A stretch of 64,000 nucleotides of DNA from a virus. Positions 38,666 to 42,040 of this stretch are shown here, in pieces; positions within the stretch are counted from its first letter, which is position 1; every line of letters begins with the position of its first letter. The notes under the pieces were generated by a model that did no database searches, had not been told where the DNA came from, and saw only the letters and a program-made list of their open reading frames with translations. The stretch spans positions 1-64,000 of IMG/VR virus record IMGVR_UViG_3300020452_000254. One strand, 5' to 3'. The position numbers and the translations under genes are program-made.

Positions 38666-39400
38666 ATGGGATTACCAAGACTTAACACTGTTGAGTATTT
38701 TGAGACATTACCTGTTTCAAAGATAGAAGTAAAGTACAGACCTTTTAATGTAGGTGAACAAAAAGTACTATTACAAGCAATAGAAGAGGGTGAACAAAAA
38801 GCCATCTCTAATGCATTAATATCTTTGTTGAGGGTATGTTCAGATTTACAAGATAGTCGTTTGAAAATAGAACAACTAAGTAATACAGATTTAGAATGGT
38901 TGTTTGTTAAAATAAGAGCTAAATCTGTAGGTGAAAACACCAAGATATTGTTAGGATGTATTGACCAACCTACTTGTGATGGACAATCAGAAATAGATGT
39001 TAACTTTAATGACCTTGAAATTGAAGGAGAAGTTAAAGATGGTAAAATACAACTAACAGACAATATTGGTGTAGTTATAAGAGTACCTAGTTACAATGAT
39101 GTAGATAGAGTTCTCGATATAGGTATTGCTGATGGAGAAATGTCTACATCAATTGTATATAAATTGTTAAATAAATGTATTCTACAAGTTTTTGATGCAG
39201 ATAATGTTTATGATACAAAAGAATTTACTGAACAAGAAATAGATGATTTTATTAATGAATTATCTGTTAATCAGTTTAATGTAATCATGGAATGGTTCAG
39301 TTCAGTTCCTAAATTAGTTTATAATGCAGAGTTTTCATGTAGTAAGTGTGGGAAAGAACAAACCCAACAACTTACTGGGTTACAGAATTTTTTCGTATAG
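38666..39400 (+). CDS. 26: Baseplate hub/tail assembly protein gp26
   Basis: A 244-residue protein of the T4 gp26 baseplate family: LPVSKIEVKYRPFNVGEQKVLLQAIE at the N-terminus, and two Cys pairs, LGCIDQPTC (middle) and FSCSKCGKEQ (C-terminal), that look like a metal site. AGGAGT precedes the ATG at 38666. The gene ends QNFFV-stop, with the slippery heptamer T-TTT-TTC over its last Phe codons; a -1 shift would extend the protein into the overlapping ORF. It is followed, after one small gene, by the tape measure, the classic place for a frameshifted tail assembly chaperone. Confidence 0.85.
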   Translation: MGLPRLNTVEYFETLPVSKIEVKYRPFNVGEQKVLLQAIEEGEQKAISNALISLLRVCSDLQDSRLKIEQLSNTDLEWLFVKIRAKSVGENTKILLGCIDQPTCDGQSEIDVNFNDLEIEGEVKDGKIQLTDNIGVVIRVPSYNDVDRVLDIGIADGEMSTSIVYKLLNKCILQVFDADNVYDTKEFTEQEIDDFINELSVNQFNVIMEWFSSVPKLVYNAEFSCSKCGKEQTQQLTGLQNFFV

Positions 39401-39582
39401 CCCTTTCTCATGATACTCTTGCAAATTACATTCAGACTAATTTTGGGTTAATCCAACATCACAGTTGGTCATTAACAGAACTGGACTCAATGTTGCCATG
39501 GGAAAGGGAGATATATGTATCTCTCTTAGTACAATTCCTTGAAGATGAGGAGTTGAAGATGAAACAATCACAAAATAAATAA
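39346..39582 (+). CDS. -1 frame extension of gp26 (tail assembly chaperone)
   Basis: This ORF overlaps the end of gp26 in the -1 frame. Its only upstream start is a GTG at 39346 without a ribosome-binding site, buried in gp26. Downstream of the heptamer it encodes about 62 residues with good protein character (SLTELDSMLPWEREIYVSLL, then an acidic/Gln end). I read it as the C-terminal part of a frameshift fusion rather than a separate gene. In T4, genes 26 and 51 lie in this order, so it may take the place of gp51. Confidence 0.6.
   Translation: MWERTNPTTYWVTEFFRIALSHDTLANYIQTNFGLIQHHSWSLTELDSMLPWEREIYVSLLVQFLEDEELKMKQSQNK
39388..39394 (+). promoter_or_regulatory. Slippery heptamer for -1 frameshift
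   Basis: T-TTT-TTC in the gp26 frame fits X-XXY-YYZ exactly. A -1 slip leads from Phe243 to Arg of the overlapping ORF and gives a 305-residue fusion. The zero-frame stop TAG is 4 nt downstream of the heptamer. I see no strong stem-loop immediately after it. Confidence 0.6.
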
Positions 39583-39594
39583 TAGGAGAGTATT

Positions 39595-39975
39595 ATGGGT
39601 GACGATAGAGAAAGGTTTGGTGGTGATATGTCACGAAACGAAGTGGAGATGGACTTAAGCAAGTTCATGGAGATGATTCAAGAGAATGGTGCTTTAAAGG
39701 ATGAGATAAGAGACCTTAAAGCGAACGACACAGTAAATCCATGGCAGAAGTGGGTTCACCTTGCAAGAACAGTTGATGCATGGAGAATTTGGCCTCGTGC
39801 ATTTTTAAGTGTTTACATATTCTTAGTGTATTACGCTGCAATATGGTTTATGGACTTACCAGAACCATCGATGGAACAATCTGGTCTTATCAGTATATTG
39901 GTAGGTGCTGGAGCTGCATGGTTTGGACTATATGTCAATTCCGCTGCAAAAGAACACGATACAAACAACAAATAG
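39595..39975 (+). CDS. Holin-like small membrane protein
   Basis: A 126-residue protein with a charged N-terminus (about 55 residues, acidic, coiled), then two hydrophobic segments (FLSVYIFLVYYAAIWFMDL and LISILVGAGAAWFGLYVNSA) and a short hydrophilic tail. The ending resembles the three-TM holins of gene-transfer-agent type in general form. No other lysis gene is visible nearby, and gp5 lacks lysozyme, so a lysis role is a guess. AGGAGAG precedes the ATG. Confidence 0.5.
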   Translation: MGDDRERFGGDMSRNEVEMDLSKFMEMIQENGALKDEIRDLKANDTVNPWQKWVHLARTVDAWRIWPRAFLSVYIFLVYYAAIWFMDLPEPSMEQSGLISILVGAGAAWFGLYVNSAAKEHDTNNK

Positions 39976-39988
39976 GTAGTAAAGACTC

Positions 39989-42040
39989 ATGGCAGACGAA
40001 AAGAAAACAGCAAAACAAATACAGGAAGAAGCTGAAGCAAAAAAAGAGATGGAAGCAGTCCGAAAATCCAATAAAGGGATAATGGATGAAATTAAAGACC
40101 AAAACAAAGCTCTTAGAGAATCAACTAAAACCCAAAACCAATTAGTTAAGGTTATGGAAAGTGACTCTCAAAGAGAAGGTAAGTTACTTAAAGAAGTTTT
40201 AGATAGTAAAATTGGTTTTGGAAAAAATGCTGGAAATGATAGGTTTTCTGATGAACAAAAGAAAAACTTACAATCTCAATTTGGTCTTGGTCAACTTGGT
40301 GTAAGTAGTGCTGATGCTGCCAATAGAGTCGCTGCAAACAATCAATTAGAACAACTGAATAAAGAAAAAGAAAGACTAGAGGGAATTCAAAAAGAATTTG
40401 GTCTTAGTAAGTTTGATACTACTGAATTAGATGCACTTGAAAGTGATATAAAATCTTTAGAAGAAATTCAAAAATTTGGTAGAACATTATCAAACTTTGA
40501 AAAAGGTTTTCAAATGTTTGCTGGTGGAACAATGGATGAACTAATTCAATCCACAAAAGGACAAGGTGCATTAACTGCTCAAGGTATTGTTAAAGGACTT
40601 GGTAATGACCTTAAAGGAGATTTTGATAAAATTCTTAGTTTCCTTGGGCCTGCAGCTGGTATCTTACAACAAATACCATTTCTTGGAACTATAGCAAATC
40701 TTGCACAAACTGGATTTAAAAAACTTTTTGTACAAATGTTCCTTACTAGGAAAGCATCTGCACAAAACAGTAGAAAAGAAATATTATCTCAAGAAAAAAC
40801 TTCAAAGATTCTTCATCAAGATATGTCATTAGAGGCTCAACAGAGACGAAGAGAAGCCAGAGACAAAATGAAAGAAAAACTTAGTAAGGGTAAAGGTGGT
40901 AAAGATGGTAGTGGTGATACCACCAATGTTCAAGAAGGTGATTCTAATTTAGGTGGTGGTCTTCTTGGTGCTTCTTTTGCATTAAGGAATCTTGCAAATG
41001 CAAAAGTTGGTGCTGGTGTTGCAGCCCTTGGTACTGGATTGGCTAGTCTTGCAGCGTTACCTGTAGTTATTGGTGCAGCGAAACTTTCAGCTGCAATCGT
41101 ACTATTGGGTGGTGCAGTTGCATTATCAATTGCCGCTGTTATTAGTAGTATTGCACTTGGATTTAAGCCATGGGATAGATTTAATACTGCTGAAACACTA
41201 AAAGATTTAAGTTCTGATGAAATTAAGCCAGGAAAAATAACTGCATTAATTGCTGGTATGGGTGCAGCTTCAGTATTAACTGCAATAGGTGGTCTTGCAC
41301 AAACAATTACAACTCTTGGTGGTACATTTACACCAATGACTGATTTAGCAAAAGACTTGGGTGGATTTGCAAAAAATGTAAAACCTTTTATTGCTTTAGA
41401 TATGTTGGGAGTTGCATCTAATTATCGTGTATTGAATGAACAAGTAATGGATAAAACTGGTGGTTTATTTGAAAACTTTACAATGTGGACTGGTAATGAT
41501 AACTTTAAAAACTTTGGTACTGACTTAGGTGAGTTTGCAACTGCAATCTCACCATTCATTCAAATGAATATGACTGCATTTACTAACAACATAGAATTAT
41601 TACAAAATGCAATAGATAATTTAGAATTTGATGGACTTGATAGAAAACAAAAGAATGCATTAACATCACTTAAGGCTCTTGGTCAAATTCGTTTATCACA
41701 AAATAATTTAGGTGAACAAGTTGTTTTATTAGGTAAAGGTGTTGAAATACTCTCTACAAGTCTTGATACATTAAGTACAACGAAAGTAGACATGCTTGGT
41801 AAACTTGGTAAAGAACTAAGTAATAGTTTTAGTGAATTAAATATAAACTTAAATGCTAATCCAACAGTTGCTGGTGTTAATTCAAATTTACTTTCTAGTA
41901 ATATGGGTAATGGAAATTTACCTGTTGTAGCAATGTCACCAGTTGTTAATACTCAAACTAATAACATGCCTGTTTCAAGAAATTATGGTAGTTCTGGAGT
42001 TTCTATGAATAGTAACTTCAATGATGGTTTACTTGCTTAA
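39989..42040 (+). CDS. 29: Tail tape measure protein candidate
   Basis: A 683-residue protein in the place of the tape measure, behind the frameshifting gp26 locus. Residues 1-180 are highly charged coiled coil (QIQEEAEAKKEMEAVRKSNK...). Residues about 200-260 and 330-470 contain long hydrophobic, Ala/Gly-rich helices (AALGTGLASLAALPVVIGAA; LSAAIVLLGGAVALSIAAVI) typical of tape measures that enter the inner membrane. At about 0.15 nm per helical residue it would span roughly 100 nm. T4 gp29 is 590 residues. It ends convergently, overlapping the next minus-strand gene by 4 bp. Confidence 0.7.
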   Translation: MADEKKTAKQIQEEAEAKKEMEAVRKSNKGIMDEIKDQNKALRESTKTQNQLVKVMESDSQREGKLLKEVLDSKIGFGKNAGNDRFSDEQKKNLQSQFGLGQLGVSSADAANRVAANNQLEQLNKEKERLEGIQKEFGLSKFDTTELDALESDIKSLEEIQKFGRTLSNFEKGFQMFAGGTMDELIQSTKGQGALTAQGIVKGLGNDLKGDFDKILSFLGPAAGILQQIPFLGTIANLAQTGFKKLFVQMFLTRKASAQNSRKEILSQEKTSKILHQDMSLEAQQRRREARDKMKEKLSKGKGGKDGSGDTTNVQEGDSNLGGGLLGASFALRNLANAKVGAGVAALGTGLASLAALPVVIGAAKLSAAIVLLGGAVALSIAAVISSIALGFKPWDRFNTAETLKDLSSDEIKPGKITALIAGMGAASVLTAIGGLAQTITTLGGTFTPMTDLAKDLGGFAKNVKPFIALDMLGVASNYRVLNEQVMDKTGGLFENFTMWTGNDNFKNFGTDLGEFATAISPFIQMNMTAFTNNIELLQNAIDNLEFDGLDRKQKNALTSLKALGQIRLSQNNLGEQVVLLGKGVEILSTSLDTLSTTKVDMLGKLGKELSNSFSELNINLNANPTVAGVNSNLLSSNMGNGNLPVVAMSPVVNTQTNNMPVSRNYGSSGVSMNSNFNDGLLA

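Follow-up and report, generated by a model that had tools for sequence, protein, structure and literature searches.

Tail assembly genes of long-tailed phages share a conserved frameshift (Xu, Hendrix and Duda 2004, as described in PMC5009743), to which T4 has been named as an exception (PMC5009743). The tail assembly chaperones of T4-like phages are treated by Vladimirov, Gautam and Davidson (2022), a study cited in both PMC10885494 and PMC12846349. As relayed in the former, which presents PRFect, some T4-like phages possess one short and one fused long gene, and as relayed in the latter, poly-T slip signals are known in the TAC-N genes of T4-like phages. For Pseudomonas phage Adele and the families Vandenendeviridae and Andersonviridae, a chaperone frameshift with the conserved motif GTTTTT has been reported (PMC12846349). 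In an earlier comparison, cyanophage gp51 was found to be about 20% of full length, and gp51 was considered absent in Aeh1 (Sullivan et al. 2010; PMC3037559).

Here we describe a locus in which a programmed -1 frameshift in gp26 very probably yields a short and a long tail assembly chaperone (Table 1). The window, that is, the whole stretch of 64,000 nucleotides that was analysed, is part of a 75.6-kb virus contig, itself a fragment. The genes around gp26 are T4-like tail and head-completion genes, and the named relatives of gp26 belong chiefly to Kyanoviridae (cyanophages, pelagiphages and Methylophilales phages).

Table 1. Features of the gp26 locus, with positions in the window
Feature	Position	Strand	Evidence
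gp26-like tail assembly chaperone, predicted short form (TAC-N, 244 aa)	38666..39400	+	PF12322, phrog_150, AlphaFold/PDB match
Predicted frameshift product, long form (TAC-NC, 305 aa: 243 + 62)	38666..39582	+	phrog_150, hhalign with T-even gp51
GTG, the one candidate start of the -1 ORF ahead of the conserved part	39346..39348	+	unconserved; lacks a Shine-Dalgarno sequence
Weak Shine-Dalgarno-like site ACTGGG, 9-14 nt upstream of the heptamer	39374..39379	+	strong GARGG in most relatives
Slippery heptamer T-TTT-TTC, gp26 frame	39388..39394	+	read directly; conserved in relatives
-1 extension, 62 residues (RIALSH...QNK) and stop; homolog of the gp51 C-terminal domain	39394..39582	+	phrog_634, dN/dS
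0-frame stop TAG, one codon (GTA) past the heptamer	39398..39400	+	read directly
126-aa ORF between chaperone and presumed tape measure	39595..39975	+	phrog_10198 (unknown function), E 1e-20
Presumed tape measure protein (683 aa)	39989..42040	+	position, length, hydrophobic segment near residues 368-390

The gp26 product resembles the T4 gp26 family over its full length, matching PF12322 (E 7e-50, residues 12-243) and phrog_150 (E 4e-49). Its AlphaFold model, built from an alignment whose rows were the window and viral contigs only, has a pLDDT of 88. The best PDB match of the model is the HK97 tail assembly chaperone 2ob9_A (Z 7.1; 83 of 107 residues, rmsd 4.2), followed by a match with Z 2.1, and Foldseek alone gave no PDB match with E below 0.001. 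With Z under 8 and Foldseek E values of 0.8-1.8, the model is suggestive of a tail assembly chaperone fold for the short form. In the preferred reading, gp26 is a tail assembly chaperone.

At its 3' end, gp26 reads CAG AAT TTT TTC GTA TAG. As the preliminary description had stated, T-TTT-TTC, a heptamer of the type X XXY YYZ, thus lies in the frame of the short ORF just before its stop. The heptamer is not rare, since TTTTTTC occurs 18 times in this A+T-rich window against 29 occurrences expected from shuffles; rarity was therefore rejected as evidence, and position and conservation must carry the claim. Related loci were collected with gp26 search patterns lacking its C-terminus, with a downstream gp51 motif, and from isolate genomes. 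The query used for the gp51-motif ranking started with EFF, which introduces a small bias; the loci found with gp26 patterns are free of it, and all of those with a complete 3' end show the slip site. The preliminary description had called for a check of the heptamer in relatives, and it proved to be kept, with its phase, in every relative scored: NNT-TTT-TTN is present at the homologous place in 103 of 103 related loci, which form 69 clusters below 70% identity and include cyanophages, pelagiphages, Aeromonas and Vibrio T4-like phages, and a Rhizobium phage. Under a codon-usage null, the probability of this conservation is about 10^-27 over the 69 clusters, an estimate that treats the clusters as independent although they are so only partly. 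The last base of the heptamer is free among these loci (C 79, A 11, T 10, G 3), and the codon preceding the slip (AGT, AAT, GAT, TCT or GCT) always ends in T, across Asn, Ser, Asp and Ala. The site is retained despite rare codons, for example in Rhizobium phage RL2RES, where P(GAT) is 0.39 and P(TTT) is 0.26, and in 92 of the 103 loci the distance from the start of the P-site codon to the 0-frame stop is 9 nt. When 64 cluster representatives were aligned by codon and scored for synonymous constraint, two of the 234 gp26 columns ranked highest: the one just ahead of the slip (z 5.1) and that of the slipped TTT itself (z 3.9).

The slip site was identified in the Straboviridae phages Aeh1, phiAS5, CC2 and Cronobacter S13, as well as in Vibrio 6E35.1a, Stenotrophomonas Moby, Bakedbeans, SRB7757 and Ochrobactrum OC; in RL2RES it reads T TTT TTG. 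The gp26/gp51 layout is common to Aeh1, phiAS5, Cronobacter S13, CC2, Bakedbeans and others. T-even phages have neither a heptamer nor TAATG at the end of gp26, and VP-1 has TAATG instead of the heptamer. In the Ackermannviridae FEC14 (locus L032, 2290-2320) and Bue1 (L024, 2265-2300), a gp51-like -1 domain lies right at the gp26 stop, and the slip position reads G-ATT-TTC, not T-TTT-TTC, which is possibly a non-canonical shift site.

The 62-residue extension, which ends with a stop codon at 39580-39582, matches phrog_634 (E 1e-27) in the part that corresponds to the gp51 C-terminus, bearing out the link to gp51 made in the preliminary description. Over the first 25 codons past the slip in ten close loci, dN/dS in the -1 frame is 0.09, indicative of strong purifying selection, and stops interrupt both other frames. 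The protein is conserved from the slip onwards, with FF invariant and R-I/L-A/T-L in most cyanophage-type rows. The -1 ORF had been described as opening exactly at the heptamer, but it already opens at 39346, 42 nt before the heptamer; it is the conserved part of this frame, not its opening, that starts at the heptamer. The 20 bases past the heptamer (39395-39415, GTNTARCCCTTTCTCATGA) are nearly invariant in ten close relatives, which perhaps exceeds what the codons need and might reflect an additional signal.

Joining the two parts extends the homology. The fusion gives one continuous match to phrog_150 that spans residues 1-288 and scores 204.6 bits, whereas gp26 by itself scores 168.5. LH01 (Mosigvirus), Acj61 and AM101 encode gp26 on one strand and a long gp51 of about 250 aa on the other, and residues 8-203 of LH01 gp51 match LH01 gp26 at 3e-10. 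A profile of the gp51 proteins of these three T-even phages was compared, using hhalign, with a profile of 69 fusions: T-even gp51 residues 6-245 aligned with the fusion through the junction (probability 99, E 4.7e-19), so that the long product is homologous to T-even gp51 over its full length. On the strength of these two matches, T-even gp51 is a gp26-like domain plus a tail domain, the predicted gene-encoded equivalent of the fusion. The link to gp51 is thereby sharpened, the counterpart of T-even gp51 being the whole fusion. No separate gp51 gene with its own start, as in the T-even arrangement, was found in the 75.6-kb contig, which is a fragment. Aeh1 carries GAT TTT TTC GAC TGA and an unannotated -1 domain; the gp51 "missing" from this Aeromonas phage corresponds to that extension of gp26 past T TTT TTC (L114, 1001-1168).

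The main alternative to be weighed is that the -1 ORF represents a small gene 51 in its own right, which starts at GTG 39346 or at an internal codon and whose translation depends on coupling to, or reinitiation at, the gp26 stop. Most public annotations indeed place separate short gp51 genes there, and TGATG or TAATG at the gp26 stop, which provides the -1 ORF with an ATG in RL2RES, VP-1, Moby and Vibrio 6E35.1a (L019, L020, L021 and L029), could start it in these phages. However, the heptamer is retained alongside the overlapping ATG in RL2RES, Moby and Vibrio 6E35.1a, though not in VP-1, and both routes may operate where the two coexist. In the window and nine close relatives, the -1 frame contains no ATG, GTG or TTG after the slip before codon 26-32. 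GTG 39346 is immediately preceded by a stop, and its position holds no start in six of the nine closest relatives (L005, L008, L009, L010, L012 and L033). The earlier claim that the -1 ORF lacks a usable start accordingly holds in that no start is conserved, but one possible start, this GTG without a Shine-Dalgarno sequence, does exist. Furthermore, the annotated starts vary among phages, yet protein conservation begins at the slip, and T-even gp51 is a fused long protein. Because -1 coding is conserved from the slip and there is no start there, the segment has to be entered from gp26, and an independent gene 51 is highly unlikely. The outcome named beforehand as fatal to the frameshift, an unconserved heptamer together with a -1 product that has its own start, is contradicted by the retention of the site and by an overlapping, protein-coding -1 ORF that has no conserved start codon.

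Two other explanations concern how the frames are joined. RNA polymerase could slip on the six-T run, so that mRNAs carrying an additional U would encode the long form; six T residues form the conserved core, and a one-base insertion gives the same frame. Six T is short for transcriptional slippage, which would tolerate any phase, whereas the relatives always show the single phase NNT TTT TTN with its last base free, a pattern that suits tandem tRNA re-pairing, and we consider polymerase slippage extremely improbable. Likewise, a sequencing or assembly error could have introduced the gp26 stop into a single fused gene, as one base would join the frames, but more than 100 loci that were sequenced independently, some of them in isolate genomes, share the arrangement, which refutes this reading and leaves it a negligible chance. 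Ribosomal frameshifting in gp26 is thus the preferred reading.

Stimulatory signals for the frameshift were sought on both sides of the heptamer. No downstream RNA structure was detected in the window (z +0.2 to +1.1), and no convincing covariation was found; a stem-loop stimulator was rejected, with relatives showing a slight average tendency only. Shine-Dalgarno stimulators are usually located 9-14 nt upstream of the slip site. The best Shine-Dalgarno-like site has -3.1 kcal/mol in the window, compared with a mean of -6.2 in relatives and a background of -1.2 kcal/mol, and the synonymous null for the relatives is -4.9 against the observed -6.2 kcal/mol. As a selected element this site was rejected, because a conserved Gly codon accounts for most of the signal in relatives and the signal of the window is weak. 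In bacteria, slipping is generally weaker on T TTT TTC than on A AAA AAG. Given the lack of downstream structure and the weak Shine-Dalgarno-like stimulator, the expected frameshift efficiency is uncertain.

The preliminary description also placed a tape measure gene shortly downstream. The position fits, with the 683-aa ORF following the 126-aa ORF, but no homolog of the 683-aa product was recognisable outside its clade: none was found among 50,697 phage records, and a link to cyanophage tape measures was rejected for lack of homology. In the relative L012, the stretch matching 39989-42040 consists of two ORFs of 190 and 454 aa. The 126-aa ORF occupies the same place in close relatives, and several cyanophages have no ORF there; judged by eye, its product has a hydrophobic stretch.

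Under the proposed mechanism, most ribosomes would stop at TAG and produce the short form, and a minority would shift by -1 at T-TTT-TTC, where the two Phe tRNAs paired with TTT-TTC would move to TTT-TTT. The slipped ribosomes would bypass TAG and add 62 residues, yielding the 305-aa long form, which would take the place of gp51, a long gene in its own right in T-even phages. Both the occurrence and the rate of slippage are inferred. If the locus works like lambda gpG/gpGT, the tape measure protein would be coated by the short form, and tube subunits would be recruited by the extra domain of the long form; the two predicted forms may in this way act in tail-length assembly.

The frameshifted tail-assembly-chaperone layout of long-tailed phages, proposed for this locus at the outset, is supported by the conserved heptamer, the -1 coding and the homology of the fusion to gp51. 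Sequence comparison provides very good support for a -1 programmed frameshift joining gp26 and gp51, and the predicted event is of the lambda G/GT (TAC-N/TAC-NC) kind, in a lineage whose gp51 has been annotated as a short gene of its own. Chaperones of T4-like phages and poly-T slip sites seem to be known already, and since such signals have been noted in T4-like TAC-N genes, novelty is low. The gp26-gp51 join is annotated in none of the phage records examined, which makes an annotation correction useful. Such a correction would apply to many genomes of cyanophages and their relatives, in which gp51 is given as a separate short gene or as missing, and would explain why cyanophage gp51 seemed to be about 20% of full length and Aeh1 seemed to lack gp51 (PMC3037559). 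We see roughly even odds for a broader generalization, namely that NNT-TTT-TTN has been kept across the T4 superfamily as a minimal signal without conserved downstream structure, being lost only in T-evens, with their separate gene, or in the reworked Ackermannviridae (G-ATT-TTC/TAATG), and that annotated short gp51s and the "missing" gp51 of Aeh1 are gp26 frameshift extensions.

Compared with known systems, the locus resembles lambda gpG/gpGT in its short ORF with an in-frame heptamer near the 3' end, its overlapping -1 ORF without a start, the presumed tape measure gene downstream and, by analogy, the chaperone role. The lambda slip site is G GGA AAG, whereas here it is T TTT TTC, and the proteins belong to the T4 gp26/gp51 families. 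With the Adele-type systems the locus has in common the predicted -1 frameshift, a poly-T slip at the end of TAC-N, and a C-terminal part misannotated as a separate gene; those systems differ in the phage families involved and in the slip motif, GTTTTT. With T4-type gp26/gp51 the locus shares the gp26 family PF12322, and its fusion is homologous to T-even gp51 along its whole length. However, T-evens encode the short and long forms in two genes on opposite strands, in contrast to the single locus predicted to encode both here. This points to a clear evolutionary contrast, in which one pair of chaperone isoforms probably arises by frameshifting across most of the superfamily but from two separate genes in T-evens.
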